NCBI GenBank assembly: GCA_029881495.1
Contig: JAOUMJ010000016.1
Span: 1-64,000, forward strand
Direction: 5' to 3'
DNA from: Nitrospinota bacterium
GTDB lineage: Bacteria > Nitrospinota_A > UBA7883 > JACRGQ01
DNA length: 64,000 bases
The notes under the pieces: generated by a model
Told to the model about the DNA's origin: nothing
What the model saw: the letters and a program-made list of their open reading frames with translations, nothing else
The model's database searches: none
Position numbers and translations under genes: made by a program
Shown here: piece by piece, positions 49,597 through 56,020 of the stretch
Layout: the number at the start of each line of letters is the position of its first letter
Position numbering within the stretch: the first letter of the stretch is position 1

Positions 49597-50402
49597 AGCG
49601 GATAACATTCATCACATTGGCGCTCACTTTCGCATTAGCCGCACCATCCGATAGCGGTGAAGCTCCCGCCGAAACAGTGGCCGGCGGATCGCCAAAAAAG
49701 CTGGCGGAACTCTACAACAAGGGGAATGCCGCATACAGGGATGGCGGATACGATACGGCCGTAAACCTTTACACAAGGATAGCGGAAGAAGCCGGAGTAT
49801 TTGACCCCTCCCTTTATTACAACCTGGCGAACGCTCACATGAAGAGGGGAGAGATCGGCAAGTCGATCCTTTATTACAGGAGAGCGCTGGAAATAGATCC
49901 AAGGGACGCCGATATCATAGCCAACCTTGAATACGCCAGAACCCTGCGGGAAGACAGAATTGACGAGGAAAGCTCCCCTGCCGCCACAGGAAAGATCTCA
50001 AAAATCATCCCCAGACTAACTTTGAATGAATATGCCGGCATTGAACTGGTTCTGTTCACGGTATTCTCTATTCTCATTTTTACCGTAACTGCCATTAAAC
50101 TTGATAACACTGCACTTTTGATCAAACTGAAAAAATTGTCTCTAATATTCGGGATACTCCTTGTTGCCCAAACCCTGCTTTTAGGCGCAAGAACTTCAAC
50201 ATACATCAGCAGGGAAGATGCGGTTATCCTCGAAAAAACCGTTTCGGTCTTTTCGGCCCCATCGGCAGGAGCTGAAAAGCTCTTCGATTTACATGAGGGG
50301 ACCGAAGTCTCAATCCTTCAGAGCGATAACGACTTCCTGGAAATAACTCTCCCGACCGGATGGAAGGGGTGGATACATCATATGACACTTGAATTAATCT
50401 GA
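49593..50402 (+). CDS. batE: BatE-like TPR and SH3 domain protein
   Basis: 269 residues overlapping the batD stop by 4 nt. A signal peptide (about 1-22) is followed by TPR repeats (KLAELYNKGNAAYRDGGYDT, then DPSLYYNLANAHMKRGEIGK and SILYYRRALEIDPRDADIIA). Two transmembrane helices (about 152-172 and 185-203) lead to a C-terminal bacterial SH3-like domain ending EITLPTGWKGWIHHMTLELI. This TPR-TM-SH3 order is that of BatE, partner of BatD in the cell envelope. Confidence 0.8.
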   Translation: MKRITFITLALTFALAAPSDSGEAPAETVAGGSPKKLAELYNKGNAAYRDGGYDTAVNLYTRIAEEAGVFDPSLYYNLANAHMKRGEIGKSILYYRRALEIDPRDADIIANLEYARTLREDRIDEESSPAATGKISKIIPRLTLNEYAGIELVLFTVFSILIFTVTAIKLDNTALLIKLKKLSLIFGILLVAQTLLLGARTSTYISREDAVILEKTVSVFSAPSAGAEKLFDLHEGTEVSILQSDNDFLEITLPTGWKGWIHHMTLELI

Positions 50403-50504
50403 AATTTCGAAAAAACTTTCATAAATCTCCCCCTGGATTTCTTTTCATAATATTATACATTTTCATCTCCGCTTTTGATGTTACATATGGTAAATTATCG
50501 TTAC

Positions 50505-51386
50505 ATGATTATTAAAGAAAACAATCAATTAAACAGGCTTGAATCAAGGCGAATCGCCATTCAAAAGCTGGAGGACCTGCCAACTATCTCCTTGGTTTTG
50601 CAGAAGGTATTGGAAATAGTTAACAGTGATAAAGCCTCTGCAAACGATTTGGCGAAACTTGTATCTCATGATCAATCCCTTATGTCTATCATCCTCAAGC
50701 TTGTTAATTCCGCGTTTTTTGGCCACATGAGAAAAATCTCCTCGATACATCAGGCAACAGTAATACTTGGTTTCAATACGGTAAAGAGCATCGCACTTGG
50801 AGCCACACTCTTCCAGCCGGACAAATCGGGGAAAGGGGGGGACAGCATCGATCGAAAAGCTCTCTGGCTTCACTCACTGGCAACCGCTCAAACATCAAAG
50901 TTTCTGGCCCAGATCGTTTCATACCCTGATCCCGATGAAGCATACATTGGCGGGTTGTTGCACGACCTGGGCAAAGTGGTTTTGGATATAACATTCCCAA
51001 TAGAATTCCAAGAGGCATACCAGCACACCAAAAAAGAAAATAAACCTATCATTGACCTTGAACAAGAAAAAATCGGAATAGATCACGCTGAGGCTGGCTA
51101 TATACTTCTGAACAAGTGGCAATTACCGGTCGCGGTCGCTGAAGGGATACGGTTTCACCACTCCCCCGATAAAGCAAAAATAACTTCGAAGAATCTCGCG
51201 TCTATAATAAACGTCTCCAATCACATTTCCGCAATACTTGGATTCAGCATCGGCATAAATAATACGCCCAGTGAACTCGATGAGGGGGCTGTAGAATGCC
51301 TGAAACTTAAAGAATCTCACATTGAAAGAATTATCGTTGAAATGGAAGAGAAGAAGGACGAAATAGTAAAGTTCGGGACAGCATAA
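50505..51386 (+). CDS. HDOD-domain signalling protein
   Basis: About 293 residues from ATG 50505. In-frame starts at 50478 and 50487 also exist, and none has a clear Shine-Dalgarno. The HDOD domain opens IQKLEDLPTISLVLQKVLEI and includes LAKLVSHDQSLMSIILKLVN and the central YIGGLLHDLGKVVLD. Some HD-type residues (HDLGK, then HH in IRFHHSP) are kept, so residual metal binding is conceivable, although most HDOD proteins lack enzyme activity. Its stop overlaps the ATG of the histidine kinase by 1 nt, so the products probably act together. Confidence 0.82.
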   Translation: MIIKENNQLNRLESRRIAIQKLEDLPTISLVLQKVLEIVNSDKASANDLAKLVSHDQSLMSIILKLVNSAFFGHMRKISSIHQATVILGFNTVKSIALGATLFQPDKSGKGGDSIDRKALWLHSLATAQTSKFLAQIVSYPDPDEAYIGGLLHDLGKVVLDITFPIEFQEAYQHTKKENKPIIDLEQEKIGIDHAEAGYILLNKWQLPVAVAEGIRFHHSPDKAKITSKNLASIINVSNHISAILGFSIGINNTPSELDEGAVECLKLKESHIERIIVEMEEKKDEIVKFGTA

Positions 51387-52750
51387 TGATTGAAGAAAAA
51401 AAGGAAAATATCCAAATATTGAGAGAGCGGCTGAAGACAGCTCTCCGCGAGAGGAAAATCTATTCGGAAGCGCTTTCCGAATCAAACAGACGTTTCAACA
51501 CGATGATAAAGGAGATGTCCATTCTGCGGAGGGTCACCGAATCGATTTCGGCATCCATTAATAAAAGGAGCGTATGTGAAAGCCTGGTGGAGATAATAAT
51601 CTCGGAAACAGCCGCTGAAAACTGCTCGCTTATGCTTCTTTCAAACGACAGGCAACATCTGATCCTGACCGCAGCCATGAGCCAGTCGGACAGCAAACCT
51701 GCCTACTTTTCCCCTGAAGATTCACCACGAATAATGAGAGTCGGCGAAGGGATTGCCGGAAACGTTGCTCTAAGCAACAGCGAACAATTTGTTGTCGATA
51801 CCGGGAATTCCGAATTGTTCATGCATTTCCCAGACGGCAGAGAGGACATAAACTCCCTATACTGCCTCCCTATCTCTGGCAAGCAGGGACTCTTGGGGGT
51901 GCTAAACCTCAGTCATCCCTACACCGGATCTCTCCTTTGGGAGAATAAGAAGGTGCTTGAGATCGTCACGCGCGAAACGGCGCTTGCCCTTTCCAATATC
52001 CAGATTTTTTACGACATAAGAGAATTCACTGGAAAGCTTGAGCAGGCCGGAGAAGATGCCGCTCTTGCCGCAAAGATGACCGCGCTAAGCGATCTGGCAG
52101 GGGGTCTGGCCCACGAGATAAACAATCCCATCGCCATAATACATGGCAACGCTGAAGACATGCTGGAAAGGATAGAATCCGATGATGTGCCGGATGCCGA
52201 CACTACCAAGGAAACGCTGCAAACGATTATAGATTCAGCCAAGCGCTGCTCTTCCATTATCGAAAGCATACTTGAGTTTGCGAAACCTGTTCCTCATTCA
52301 TTCAAGGAATGCTCAGTCGATGAGATAGTGTCCAGCAGCTTGAATAAATACCAATCAAGTGGAAATGGAGAAAAAGTCGAAATTTCAGTCAATGGTAACG
52401 GTCTTGGGTCGAACATAACCACAAGCCCTGTCCATCTGTCGCGCGTGCTTATTAATCTGCTTGATAACGCGATTGAAGCGTCCAAGCATGGATCAAAAAG
52501 AGAAAAAGTGGAATTAGCTGTTGAAAAACGCGACCAAACTATTATTTTCAGCATTACGGATTATGGAAGAGGGATTCCAAAGGAGAATTTCTCAAAGATA
52601 TTCAATCCGTTCTTTACCACGAAAGAGCCAGGCAAGGGGCCGGGCATGGGACTTACAATCTCATACCTGCTGACGAGAAAATTAGGCGGGAATATTTTTG
52701 CGAATTCGGATACCGGAAAAACTACTTTTACGGTATCCTTGCCATTATAG
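51386..52750 (+). CDS. Soluble GAF-domain sensor histidine kinase
   Basis: 454 residues with no transmembrane helix. An N-terminal coiled coil (about 1-45) precedes a GAF domain (about 60-210), with VGEGIAGNVALSNSEQFVVD and SLYCLPISGKQGLLGVLNLS. The HisKA domain has phospho-acceptor H243 in GGLAHEINNPIAI. The ATPase domain shows the N box NLLDNAIEAS, G1 DYGRGIP and G2 GKGPGMGLTISYLL. The kinase senses an intracellular signal through GAF and probably passes phosphate to the regulator encoded 21 nt downstream. Confidence 0.92.
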   Translation: MIEEKKENIQILRERLKTALRERKIYSEALSESNRRFNTMIKEMSILRRVTESISASINKRSVCESLVEIIISETAAENCSLMLLSNDRQHLILTAAMSQSDSKPAYFSPEDSPRIMRVGEGIAGNVALSNSEQFVVDTGNSELFMHFPDGREDINSLYCLPISGKQGLLGVLNLSHPYTGSLLWENKKVLEIVTRETALALSNIQIFYDIREFTGKLEQAGEDAALAAKMTALSDLAGGLAHEINNPIAIIHGNAEDMLERIESDDVPDADTTKETLQTIIDSAKRCSSIIESILEFAKPVPHSFKECSVDEIVSSSLNKYQSSGNGEKVEISVNGNGLGSNITTSPVHLSRVLINLLDNAIEASKHGSKREKVELAVEKRDQTIIFSITDYGRGIPKENFSKIFNPFFTTKEPGKGPGMGLTISYLLTRKLGGNIFANSDTGKTTFTVSLPL

Positions 52751-52771
52751 TGTGAGGAGAAAGGGAGATAA

Positions 52772-54115
52772 ATGACGGACAAGATCAGGCTATTGATTGT
52801 TGATGACGAGGAGATGTTCAGAAAACTTCTTCTTGAACGATTTTCGAAACAGGAATTCGAAACTACCGGATGCGCCAGCGCCGAAGAAGCGCTCGACGTA
52901 ATTACAAAAAAGGAATTCGATGTAGGCATTTTCGACATGAGGATGCCGGGGATGGACGGAATCGACCTGTTCAAGACAATCCGGAAATCGCATCCGCATT
53001 TCGAAACAATAATCCTTACAGGGGCCGCGTCTGTCGACACCGCGATCGAAGCGCTGAAACATGGCGCATACGATTACCTTACCAAACCCTGCAAGCTCTT
53101 TGAGCTTGAGCTGATAGTTCATAAGGCGTACGAAAAGAAAATGCTCTCGTTCGAAAATACAAGGCTGAGAAATTCGATTACCGCTGAAAACCGCAACTAC
53201 AAGATCATCGGTGACAGTGAAAAAACCCAGGAGCTGAAAAAGCTCGCCGAAAGAGTGGCGTCGTCACGCGCTCCGATATTGATTACAGGAGAATCAGGCG
53301 TGGGGAAAGAGTATCTCGCAAGGTGCATACACCAGATGGGCAAATCAAAGGATTCGCCGTTCATATCCGTAAGCTGTGGCTCACAGCCTCACGGCATCCT
53401 TGAAAACCAGCTCTTCGGCCACGAAAAGGATGCATTCGCCGATGCGGTCAGCGCAAAAACAGGGTGGCTTCAGCTTGCCGAAGGGGGGACGATCTTTCTT
53501 AATGATATTGAGGAGATCCACCAGTCGACGCAGGTGAAACTGAACCATTACCTCGAGACAGGCGCCTTCCAGATGGTCGGGGGCCATTCAGACATTCGTT
53601 CAAATGTCAGAATCATCGCCGCCACTGAAAATGTGCTTCGGGATATGGTACTGAAAAAGAATTTCAGGGAAGACCTTTATTACAAACTTAGCGTTATAAC
53701 GATCGAAGTCCCCCCCCTGCGTGACAGGAAGGAAGATATACCAAGCATAATCGAAATGTCCCTTCAGCATAAACAGGATATGGGGAACGGAAAAAAATTC
53801 TCGAACAAGGCTATCAACGCAATGCTTAAATACGATTGGCCCGGCAACATAAGGGAACTTATCGCCGTTGTTGAGAGGGCAACAATGGTCGCGAGCAAAA
53901 GGACTATTCAGGCCAAGGATATTCCGCTTTCAATCGAAAACAAGACGAAGAAAAACAAGCTCCGCCATCTCCTTTCCCTGAGCGATATAGAGAAAGAACA
54001 CATCCTGTATGTGCTGAACGCAACCGGCGGAAATATCTCGCGGGCCGCTAGAATTCTCGGTATAAGCAGGCCTAAACTGTACAGAAAAATAGAGCAATAT
54101 AAAGCGGGGGTCTGA
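52772..54115 (+). CDS. NtrC-family response regulator with degenerate sigma54-contact and Walker B motifs
   Basis: 447 residues. The receiver (about 5-118) has LLIVDDEEM, phospho-acceptor D55 in FDMRMPGMDG and K105 in YLTKP. The AAA+ domain has Walker A GESGVGKE (173-180), and the arginine-finger region FREDLYYKLSVITI is kept. The GAFTGA loop that contacts sigma54 is DAFADA (220-225), and the Walker B LDEI is LNDI (N244-D245). The C-terminal Fis-type HTH is intact (GGNISRAARILGISRPKLYR). It is therefore likely a DNA-binding regulator that does not activate sigma54 in the standard way. Confidence 0.9.
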   Translation: MTDKIRLLIVDDEEMFRKLLLERFSKQEFETTGCASAEEALDVITKKEFDVGIFDMRMPGMDGIDLFKTIRKSHPHFETIILTGAASVDTAIEALKHGAYDYLTKPCKLFELELIVHKAYEKKMLSFENTRLRNSITAENRNYKIIGDSEKTQELKKLAERVASSRAPILITGESGVGKEYLARCIHQMGKSKDSPFISVSCGSQPHGILENQLFGHEKDAFADAVSAKTGWLQLAEGGTIFLNDIEEIHQSTQVKLNHYLETGAFQMVGGHSDIRSNVRIIAATENVLRDMVLKKNFREDLYYKLSVITIEVPPLRDRKEDIPSIIEMSLQHKQDMGNGKKFSNKAINAMLKYDWPGNIRELIAVVERATMVASKRTIQAKDIPLSIENKTKKNKLRHLLSLSDIEKEHILYVLNATGGNISRAARILGISRPKLYRKIEQYKAGV

Positions 54116-54121
54116 AGCAAC

Positions 54122-54166
54122 TGTCAATTCCGCTATTACGGCAATGAACCGATACCGGGATTGACA
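54122..54166. repeat. Long inverted repeat between convergent genes
   Basis: TGTCAATTCCG (54122-54132) and CGGGATTGACA (54156-54166) pair over 11 bp with one G-U, enclosing 23 nt. It lies between the regulator stop and the stop of the convergent small gene. It may act as a two-way terminator, but there is no T tract. Confidence 0.4.
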
Positions 54167-54167
54167 C

Positions 54168-54359
54168 CTATGCCTTTACGCAGTCTACATACCAGAGGCA
54201 GTTTGTCCTCTGGCAATTATAGCCGACATCCCGCCTGAAACAGTCTTCGTTCCCTTCGGCAAGTTGTATAGTCCTGATCAGATCATCTTTCTTCGTGAAT
54301 TTTGACACTGACTGAATACCAAGCGTCTTCGCGAACTCCCTGATCTCTTCCATTTTCAT
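54168..54359 (-). CDS. Small SAP/Rho-N-like protein with four C-terminal cysteines
   Basis: 63 residues from ATG 54359, preceded by GGGTGG; an in-frame GTG three codons earlier overlaps that site. Residues 1-35 (KMEEIREFAKTLGIQSVSKF, TKKDDLIRTIQLAEG) form a SAP/Rho-N-like helix-extended-loop-helix fold associated with nucleic-acid binding. The tail CFRRDVGYNCQRTNCLWYVD ends with a fourth cysteine and could bind metal. Similar small proteins are common in deltaproteobacteria. The function is unknown. Confidence 0.65.
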   Translation of the reverse strand: MKMEEIREFAKTLGIQSVSKFTKKDDLIRTIQLAEGNEDCFRRDVGYNCQRTNCLWYVDCVKA

Positions 54360-54489
54360 AAAAACCACCCGGAGAAATGTTTAAAAACAAAAGGGCAGAG
54401 CAATGCAGGGTGACTCGTCGTAAACTACCCTTTGTACCATTGTACAGCATAAGCAGGAATAAGGCCCTATTTCAATTTCCACTACTTCC

Positions 54490-55416
54490 TCAGGATTTAC
54501 TGCCGTGTTCCACGGTGATAACAACATGCCCCTTCTTGTGCCCTTTGTCGACGTATCGATGAGCCTCGACAATCTGATCCAACGAATAACGTCTATCTAT
54601 GACAGGTTTGATCTTTCCCAGCTCAACTAGCTCTGAGAGGAAAATCAGATCTTCGCCTTTCAAGCCTGTTGAAGATTTTTCAGAAAGATATACACCTTTT
54701 ATTTTTAACGATCTTTTACATAATGAACGCGAAATCTTGCCTACCGAATCAAATACAACATCATAGATTTCACCATTATTGGTAAAATCCTCTTTTGTGT
54801 AATCGATGACCTTTTCCGCTCCCAAAGATTTTACCAATTCCAAATTTGAAGTACTGCATACTCCCGTAACATTGGCCCCAAGATACCTGGCAAGTTGTAC
54901 AGCGTAAGTCCCCAAGCTCCCAGAAGCACCATAGACAAGGACCTTTTGACCACTCTGGATATTCGCTTTTCCAAGTATGCTCACGACTGTAAGCCCTCCG
55001 GCAGGAATAGCGGCAGCTTCCTCAAAAGTAATATTGGGTGGCTTTAATGCAATCAAACCATTCCTTAGCGCCCCACCATCTTCACGCATACATTTGTACT
55101 CGGCATAAGCGCCAAATCCGAAACCAGTAAAGGCAAATACCTGATCGCCTATCTTGAATCGTTTAACCTCTTCACCAACTGCTTCAACTTCTCCTGCCAG
55201 CTCCATCCCTAATATCTTTACTCTTTTGGGCCTTAGGAGGCCATTAAAAAGCCTCGCAACAAACGGCTCAGGCTTTCGCATTCTTGTGTCGCCTCGATGT
55301 GCCGTTGTAGCGAAAATTTTGATGAGTATTTCATTCTTCTTAGGTGTGGGTTTTTCTATCTCTTTTATATGGAGAACCTCAGGTAGCCCGTATCTTTCAT
55401 ATACAATCGCTTTCAT
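54490..55416 (-). CDS. MDR-family NAD(P)-dependent oxidoreductase (quinone reductase-like)
   Basis: 308 residues. A GroES-like N-terminal domain ([40 protein letters not shown]) precedes a Rossmann domain with [20 protein letters not shown] and [20 protein letters not shown]. The zinc ligands of alcohol dehydrogenases are absent, which points to a quinone oxidoreductase or enoyl-reductase-type enzyme. The substrate is unknown. The 121 nt between it and the SAP-like gene, and the 240 nt upstream to the repeats at 55657, hold nothing recognised. Confidence 0.85.
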
Positions 55417-55656
55417 GAATACCTTTCCTATGGACTACTTCACAAATTAAGACCCCTCGACTGATAATATCTTACGCCAGAACAGAAGATTATCCGAATG
55501 AAGAGCAGAATATATACAAAATGAATTGAAACCAAAAACAGACCTCCCTCGACAGGCTCGGGACACCATTTGACGTATTTCAGTCCACCAACACACACAA
55601 ACACCCATGGCCCGCCATGAGCAAACCACGCGCAAAGCGTGGGGTGTGTCTAATGA

Positions 55657-56020
55657 TGGAGGCGAGGGGAGCAGGTCACTCTCGCGTTGCTCCTGCAACG
55701 CTCGCTCGACCCCGATTCGCCGACTAAACAGACTTCCTGTCTGTTTGCGCTCCCTCTTCGGTCGCGCCGTCGGCTCACTTTCAACTCCCAAAACAATACA
55801 AAAAAACAGAAAGCCCGGATGGGCTTTTGTTTTTTTGGTGGAGGCGAGGGGAGTAGGTCACTCTCGCGTTGCTCCTGCAACGCTCGCTCGACCCCGATTC
55901 GCCGACTAAACAGACTTCCTGTCTGTTTGCGCTCCCTCTTCGGTCGCGCCGTCGGCTCACTTTCGACTCCCAAAACAATACAAAAAAACAGAAAGCCCGG
56001 ATGGGCTTTTGTTTTTTTGG
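55657..56020. repeat. Two tandem 182-bp repeats abutting the tmRNA gene (55657-55838, 55839-56020)
   Basis: Each unit starts with TGGAGGCGAGGGGAG, a copy of the tmRNA 3' end, which recurs a third time 182 bp further at 56021 as the genuine gene. A unit then holds a structured GC-rich segment including the perfect hairpin AAACAGAC/GTCTGTTT, and ends with a terminator-like hairpin AAAGCCC/GGGCTTT between poly-A and poly-T. The two copies differ by very few bases. They contain no plausible protein. Nothing else is seen in 55417-55656. Confidence 0.93.
55982..56009 (-). terminator. tmRNA terminator
   Basis: Nine nt past the tmRNA 3' end on the minus strand, AAAGCCC/GGGCTTT forms a 7-bp stem with a 4-nt loop, followed by CTG and seven T. 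It is T-flanked on both strands, so it may be bidirectional. A second copy lies 182 bp further on in the tandem repeat. Confidence 0.8.

Follow-up and report, generated by a model that had tools for sequence, protein, structure and literature searches.

What is left for an NtrC-like response regulator to do once its sigma-54 contact loop and its ATP-hydrolysing residues have both been replaced? The question is raised by a gene in a stretch of 64,000 nucleotides (the window) from a Nitrospinota bacterium (assembly GCA_029881495.1, contig JAOUMJ010000016.1, positions 1 to 64,000). A preliminary description of this DNA had read DAFADA for GAFTGA and LNDI for LDEI in the open reading frame 52772-54115, and both motifs were recovered at codon level. 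Its statement that the receiver, Walker A and helix-turn-helix (HTH) are intact was borne out by their strong conservation across the orthologue rows, and the altered sigma-54-contact and hydrolysis residues proved to be degraded across the orthologue clade.

52772..54115, + strand: NtrC-like response regulator of 447 aa (REC, AAA+, lid, Fis HTH), from the open reading frame and Pfam
52793..53110, + strand: receiver domain, aa 8-113 (Pfam PF00072, 97.7 bits)
52934-52936, + strand: phospho-acceptor D55 of the receiver; D55, T83 and K105 in 16/16 orthologue rows
53288..53311, + strand: Walker A GESGVGKE, aa 173-180, intact; K179 in 16/16 orthologue rows
53429..53446, + strand: L1 loop DAFADA replacing GAFTGA, aa 220-225, judged against 96 background rows
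53498..53509, + strand: Walker B LNDI replacing LDEI (D244N, E245D), aa 243-246, from the alignment
53618..53632, + strand: sensor I AATEN with Glu at the Asn position (N286E); Asn absent in 18/18 orthologues
53684..53686, + strand: second Arg finger changed to Lys (K305, R305K); K in 11/16 and R in 5/16 orthologue rows, R in 96/96 background rows
53978..54100, + strand: Fis-type HTH, aa 403-443, with the helix SRPKLYRK (Pfam; mean identity 0.77 over 16 rows)

The Pfam domains of the regulator are Response_reg (8-113), Sigma54_activat (145-312, 187.8 bits), AAA_lid (317-396) and HTH_8 (403-443), and the helix SRPKLYRK is presumably the recognition helix. The loop region reads LFGHEKDAFADA and the surroundings of Walker B read IFLNDIEEI. 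Two further losses, sensor I Asn286 to Glu and the second Arg finger R305 to Lys, go beyond the preliminary description; R299 (first Arg finger) and R361 (sensor II) are both retained. The roles ascribed to individual residues in activator AAA+ domains are partly general background. The protein scores below the curated cut-off of the NtrC (NR(I)) equivalog TIGR01818 (343.4 against 558.6 bits) and below that of the NtrX equivalog NF051870 (313 against 600 bits). On the criterion of a Sigma54_activat domain with a non-canonical L1 motif, it matches the GAFTGA-less, sigma-70-acting NtrC-like regulators, which are a functional class and not a single family.

The changed residues were compared with those of 96 activator domains from other bacteria, which, because they were selected by similarity to the regulator, are not a random sample of activators. 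The Walker B Asp, replaced by Asn in the regulator, is present in 96/96 of these domains, and the Glu, replaced by Asp, in 93/96 (D in the other 3/96). The Thr of GAFTGA, here Ala, is T in 93/96 and S in 3/96; the first loop Gly, here Asp, is G in 96/96; the second, also Asp, is G in 86/96 and D in 4/96. The sensor I Asn, where the regulator has E286, is N in 86/96; this alignment is ungapped, and we kept the ungapped reading, E286-N287 being alternatively readable with Asn one place later. The change at S201, which we take to be the switch-Asn position, was not counted, since this position is variable in the background as well (57 N, 20 H, 13 S, 6 other). Combined, the motif changes exceed what chance would give against this background.

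A sequencing or assembly error at the motif codons would be the simplest explanation of such changes, the genome being a draft in 72 contigs. Against this, the reading frame is open, the motifs are spelled by ordinary sense codons, and the same positions are altered in relatives; we regard an error as extremely improbable. Orthologues were sought in 60 relatives and 24 genomes of the phylum; the contig search for relatives returned at least 80 matches at 34-42% identity. An orthologue was found in 18 of the 24 phylum genomes. Identity to the regulator is 60-64% among orthologues of its own family, 49-52% among those of the class's other families, and 46% for a receiver-less orthologue in G014. 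None was found in five of the 24 (G002, G006, G007, G022 and G023); in G003 the contig stops about 80 bases past the operon box, and no orthologue was counted there. The matched stretches of all 18 orthologues are free of stops. The preliminary description had named sequence error or local decay as what would refute it; the orthologue clade, altered at the same positions, rules both out. It had also proposed to check whether orthologues share both substitutions: not all of them do, yet both motifs are canonical in none of the 18.

The losses follow a pattern across the clade. The loop GA[FY]TGA is kept in 4/18 orthologues, all from one genus (g6), each with EE or ED at Walker B; conversely, the 5/18 that keep Walker B DE all belong to families other than the window's and have the loop D-A-F/Y-V/I-G-A. 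The Walker B Asp is lost in all seven members of the window's family, four of which have a canonical loop, and the loop Thr is changed in all 11 members of other families, five of which keep DE. Both motifs are lost in the regulator and in its orthologue from the sister genome G001. Over 16 orthologue rows K179, D55 and R361 are invariant (16 each) and R299 nearly so (15), and D244 (5), E245 (12), T223 (4) and R305 (5) drift. The G014 orthologue has GEQGSGKQ at Walker A and LAGA at Walker B.

In a tree of 66 of 149 non-redundant sequences, the orthologues (17 rows, the partial L038 being left out) form one clade with support 100/100, sister to a canonical protein of G047 with support 100/93; the bootstrap of this tree had yet to converge completely. 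Agreement comes from a larger tree of 95 sequences, built by a quick method, in which the clade has support 100 and the sister relation 92. The G047 protein and two relatives from its class (3/3 genomes) carry GAFTGA, IDEV and CATNK, and since this sister lineage is canonical throughout, the ancestor of the clade was likely a canonical activator.

Conservation was measured as mean pairwise identity over the 16 orthologue rows that remained after duplicate, partial and receiver-less rows had been dropped. It is 0.68 for the receiver, 0.50 for the AAA+ core, 0.56 for the lid and 0.77 for the HTH. The corresponding values are 0.63/0.76/0.59/0.74 (8 rows) and 0.61/0.67/0.54/0.54 (5 rows) in two canonical paralogue groups of the same class, 0.40/0.57/0.40/0.35 in the 96 background rows and 0.41/0.60/0.43/0.37 in the first 40 of these. 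Conservation is therefore inverted in the orthologues, where the AAA+ core is lowest, relative to their canonical relatives, where it is highest; receiver and HTH are conserved as much as in the two canonical groups or more. The inversion persists in each subset by itself, with values of 0.72/0.61/0.66/0.82 within the window's family (6 rows) and 0.71/0.58/0.63/0.82 in the other families (10 rows).

Substitution rates point the same way. In three pairs from genus g6 the AAA+ core has dN/dS of 0.208, 0.245 and 0.303, whereas a canonical paralogue in that genus has 0.016, 0.038 and 0.025; the orthologue receiver gives 0.068-0.089, the HTH 0.016-0.055, and no domain exceeds 0.303. Two other orthologue pairs, for which there was no matched control, gave AAA+ values of about 0.10 (G016/G015) and about 0.19 (G011/G018). 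Pairs with the window protein were excluded because silent sites were saturated in most domains. The AAA+ motor is thus under relaxed yet purifying selection, far from neutral.

A gene on its way out, with passive loss of the motifs, would also show an AAA+ dN/dS several times that of the canonical paralogue in genus g6, and would fit a window kinase that lacks a PAS domain and the lack of an orthologue in 6/24 phylum genomes. Decay of this kind is nevertheless improbable, given 18 orthologues free of stops, a conserved receiver and HTH, a dN/dS in genus g6 that stays at or below 0.303, and the persistence of the regulator where the adjoining kinase or HDOD gene is gone.

That persistence is seen in the gene neighbourhood. 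The regulator gene is the last of a cluster that begins with the following features.

50475..51386, + strand: HDOD-domain protein, first gene of the cluster (Pfam; co-occurs with the regulator)
50480..50508, + strand: promoter- or operator-like box GTTACATATGGTAAATTATCGTTACATGA, with 14 invariant columns over 7 family loci
51386..52750, + strand: putative cognate histidine kinase, GAF-HisKA-HATPase, 454 aa (Pfam; syntenic)

The order HDOD, kinase, regulator is found in the window and at 12 of 17 other orthologue loci; among these 12, one HDOD match is partial and one regulator is cut by a contig end, and G016 and G019, where the contig starts at the regulator, fall outside this judgement. Pfam finds a PAS domain between GAF and HisKA in 3/3 scanned kinase orthologues and none in the window kinase. 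In G012 the HDOD gene and the regulator have no kinase between them. The G015 regulator adjoins neither HDOD nor kinase and is preceded by a gene that we presume from its sequence to be KdsC-like. G014 has, in a similar place, a 330-aa AAA+HTH frame with no receiver and no adjoining kinase or HDOD. At a threshold of E 1e-25, neither G014 nor G015 gave an HDOD match. From these three loci it follows that the regulator outlives its neighbours and that the AAA+ domain outlives the receiver. In the window, the listed TTG start of the HDOD gene (50475) precedes the conserved box, and the in-frame ATG at 50505, immediately past the box, fits better and is the likelier start; the leader would then be almost absent.

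The box could be read as GTTACA repeats lying over an extended -10 (TGG-TAAATT), and it looks like a sigma-70 promoter or operator. Its core TGGTAARKTRNCGTTACA is matched exactly once per genome in 8/11 family genomes. Allowing up to 2 mismatches in these 11 genomes added 7 hits, all with 2 mismatches, against 11 hits for the reversed control pattern; a wider regulon of the family box was rejected on this count. A sigma-70 promoter scan of window positions 50300-54500 listed 5 sites, with 5.6 expected from shuffles, and the box was not among them, so the promoter claim rests on its conservation.

Outside the family, ATGTATCAT is common to five of six loci and is preceded, at a distance of about 16-17 bases, by a TTG-type hexamer, which gives a promoter-like TTG/TATCAT pattern; the sixth, in G012, has no clear box and was left out of this alignment. 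The family thus has one box and the other families of the class another, although their HTH is nearly identical. With up to 3 mismatches, the non-family box gave 17 hits in 13 genomes against 4 for the reversed control, a small excess. It is exact in three genomes (G013, G018 and G020) and has 2 mismatches in G011, in all four ahead of HDOD; the 13 remaining hits have 2-3 mismatches, 12 of them with no adjoining HDOD, kinase or regulator match and one with a receiver-like match. The chances that the regulator autoregulates its own operon appear even, and the box is, with less certainty, a candidate for its own binding site.

The presence of rpoN was another check proposed in the preliminary description, and its outcome was divided: the locus is there, and its reading frame is split in the assembly into overlapping ORFs of 370 and 183 aa in different frames (L052, G000:C6 at about 88.7-92.1 kb); the split could be an artefact of the draft or a genuine break. 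Long intact rpoN frames are present in relatives. The sigma-54 DNA-binding domain was matched in 22 of the 24 phylum genomes searched, weakly in one (G023), and not in G001 or G019; in G001, which is 98% complete, rpoN may have escaped assembly. The window genome has 13 paralogous activator domains above 200 bits, 12 with GAFTGA or GSFTGA and one with NVATGV, and all 13 keep DE at Walker B. Loss of rpoN was accordingly rejected as the cause of the motif loss: with canonical paralogues and a possible assembly gap in G001, rpoN status does not account for the finding.

The same genome content lends some colour to the view that the regulator is still a sigma-54 activator that tolerates its altered motifs, perhaps in mixed rings with a canonical paralogue. 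An rpoN locus and about a dozen canonical activators are at hand, the g6 orthologues keep GAFTGA or GAYTGA, and a GVATGV variant in Desulfovibrio is predicted to be functional in the part of PMC4641369 available to us. We nonetheless consider this quite unlikely. Seven positions are altered (the two acids of Walker B, one residue each in sensor I and the second Arg finger, and three in the loop, namely Thr and the two Gly), the rpoN frame is split, with none found in the 98% complete sister G001, and there is no convincing -24/-12 site ahead of the operon. In a check of 13 upstream regions, run without a shuffle control, no site combined the GG and GC pair with more than 7/12 matches; one locus (L155) reached 9/12 without the GC pair. 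The regulator is very likely not a sigma-54 activator. Some members of the clade may retain partial motor activity, because genus g6 keeps GAFTGA or GAYTGA and five relatives from the class keep Walker B DE.

The AAA+ domain nevertheless appears to have kept its shape. The structure model of the regulator has a pLDDT of 89.7, and its best full-length fold match is NtrC1 (1ny5; Z 35.6, rmsd 5.1, 383 aligned, 39% identity), with further matches to NtrC4 of Aquifex aeolicus (3dzd; Z 34.7, 37% identity), NtrX (5m7o; Z 32.9, rmsd 8.2, 421 aligned) and the AAA+ domain of FleQ (5exp; Z 30.3, rmsd 1.7, 249 aligned); VIA-align re-examined Foldseek's own matches and so covers the families listed there. 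Given these close matches, the AAA+ fold is predicted to be intact although the motor chemistry is not. NtrC1 and NtrC4 of A. aeolicus have canonical GAFTGA and LDE(I/V) in the alignments, both of which the regulator lacks. It resembles the ATP-bound Walker B mutant of NtrC1 (PDB 3m0e) in that the Walker B Glu is gone; that mutant is engineered, whereas here the change arose naturally and the sigma-54 loop has been lost as well. The available part of PMC7175178, from which some of the residue roles are taken, describes rings of the NtrC1 Walker B mutant E239A and GAFTGA mutants that are mostly unable to activate.

Two characterized proteins are among the closest known parallels. According to the portion of PMC10274813 at hand, the loop-less NtrC of Rhodobacter capsulatus acts at sigma-70 promoters and needs ATP binding, not hydrolysis, and the NtrC of Caulobacter, also without GAFTGA and likewise active at sigma-70 promoters, requires its Walker B (Asp) in vivo. 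As far as that portion goes, both resemble the regulator in having kept the phosphorylation site and lost the sigma-54 loop. They differ in that their loop is deleted, whereas that of the regulator is full length and substituted; in that the regulator is also degraded in Walker B, sensor I and the Arg finger; and in that they are NtrC orthologues, whereas the regulator is no NtrC equivalog. In the sections of PMC3162934 available to us, TyrR, DhaR and HupR are sigma-70 dependent and VpsR and YplP probably not sigma-54 dependent; all five share a non-canonical sigma-54 loop with the regulator and are compared here by the loop alone, as that source treats them. In the regulator's clade, loop, Walker B and sensor I change together, in traceable steps.

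From these parallels and the retained Walker A, the regulator would seem somewhat more apt to bind ATP without usefully hydrolysing it than to do otherwise, and the need of Caulobacter NtrC for its Walker B would count against a non-hydrolysing protein. Alternatively, the AAA+ pocket might have been converted into a ligand sensor, either for c-di-GMP, as in FleQ and VpsR, or for a different nucleotide, and the regulator would then integrate two signals. These two fold neighbours respond to c-di-GMP (PMC10714721, in the part available, and the titles of entries 5exx and 7v2b). In addition, all 16 rows have the Walker A Lys, and purifying selection still acts on the AAA+ core. Of all parts of the protein, however, that core is conserved least, as would be expected of a scaffold more than of a specific pocket, and we consider a ligand sensor unlikely.

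We therefore favour, with reasonable though far from full confidence, a reading drawn from the sequence in which the regulator is sigma-54-independent and non-hydrolysing, a phosphorylation-switched DNA-binding protein with a disarmed AAA+ motor, probably autoregulatory. The interpretation offered in the preliminary description, a phosphorylation-controlled DNA binder or repressor at sigma-70 promoters or an ATP-binding scaffold, is supported in part. It would descend from a normal sigma-54 activator and now serve as the output of the HDOD, GAF-histidine-kinase and response-regulator cluster. Phosphorylation of D55, together with ATP binding without productive hydrolysis, would set its oligomeric state, and this state would govern DNA binding at promoters of the housekeeping RNA polymerase instead of sigma-54 activation. 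A first target, less certain, would be its own operon through the box ahead of HDOD; there, the overlap of the box with the putative -10 and start region makes repression the most likely mode of action. The weaker relaxation in G016/G015 and G011/G018, the differing boxes and the lack of a clear box in G012 speak against this reading.

NtrC-like homologues defective in GAFTGA are already known, about 110 being counted in the available sections of PMC3162934, where many NtrC-like proteins are said to have been falsely identified as sigma-54 activators. To these the present case adds the stepwise loss of the ATP machinery across a clade, the inverted conservation and the receiver-less survivor. 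In open-licence PMC articles we found no account of an HDOD/GAF histidine kinase/NtrC operon, nor of an enhancer-binding response regulator with a catalytically inactive Walker B; either may still be published. NtrC-like proteins are easily annotated as sigma-54 activators when the loop is not inspected, and we suggest that L1, Walker B and sensor I be checked jointly for excluding false sigma-54 activators in poorly studied phyla. The clade offers a naturally occurring series of stages in the residue-by-residue dismantling of the motor, with signal input and DNA binding under strong selection, and it can therefore show what use an AAA+ ring has once ATP is no longer burned.

Other NtrC-like modules of these genomes also depart from the canonical form. 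Three response regulators of the same architecture have a degraded motor: L015:1054-2478 (TSAGNS/LEHV), its relative L193:1015-2439 in G001 (IKDIGA/LERV) and L016:1045-2445 (SETAGT/LSDI). As they lie outside the regulator's clade, the motor has been lost more than once in these genomes. In L012:1057-2466 and L191 the loop is NVATGV, beside a canonical LDEI and ATN; it may be compared with the GVATGV loop of Desulfovibrio DVUA0100, which is predicted to be still a sigma-54 activator in the part of PMC4641369 available.

The only LpxC match of the window genome is fused behind an NtrC-like REC and a degenerate AAA+ domain (L017:232-2265, - strand; G000:C8 at about 94.1-96.1 kb). The 678-aa protein comprises Response_reg (7-117), Sigma54_activat (144-253), lid (300-381) and LpxC (407-674), with no HTH match. 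Exactly one LpxC match, in an open frame of 538-962 aa, was found in 20 of the 24 phylum genomes, and the match in G022 is partial; the three LpxC frames that were read (L259, L260 and L261) have, by eye, a receiver-like start. A receiver-gated version of the first committed lipid A enzyme would be very unusual, and among the titles listed by a literature search none named such a receiver-LpxC fusion.

As a tentative and rather speculative extension, the NtrC-type REC-AAA+ module of this phylum may have been freed from sigma-54 repeatedly, to serve now as a non-hydrolysing oligomerisation switch gated by phosphorylation and ATP binding, both in DNA binding and in the LpxC fusion. One role would be in DNA binding at housekeeping promoters, for which the G014 form would do without a receiver; the other, elsewhere in these genomes, would be as the regulatory N-terminal half of an LpxC fusion. 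The same proposal would have the motor lost by two routes within the regulator's clade, Walker B first in the window's family and the sigma-54 loop first in the others. Apart from these modules, the window holds a tandem direct repeat at 55654-56017, with two 182-base copies that are 98% identical, between a dehydrogenase gene and a DUF302 gene.
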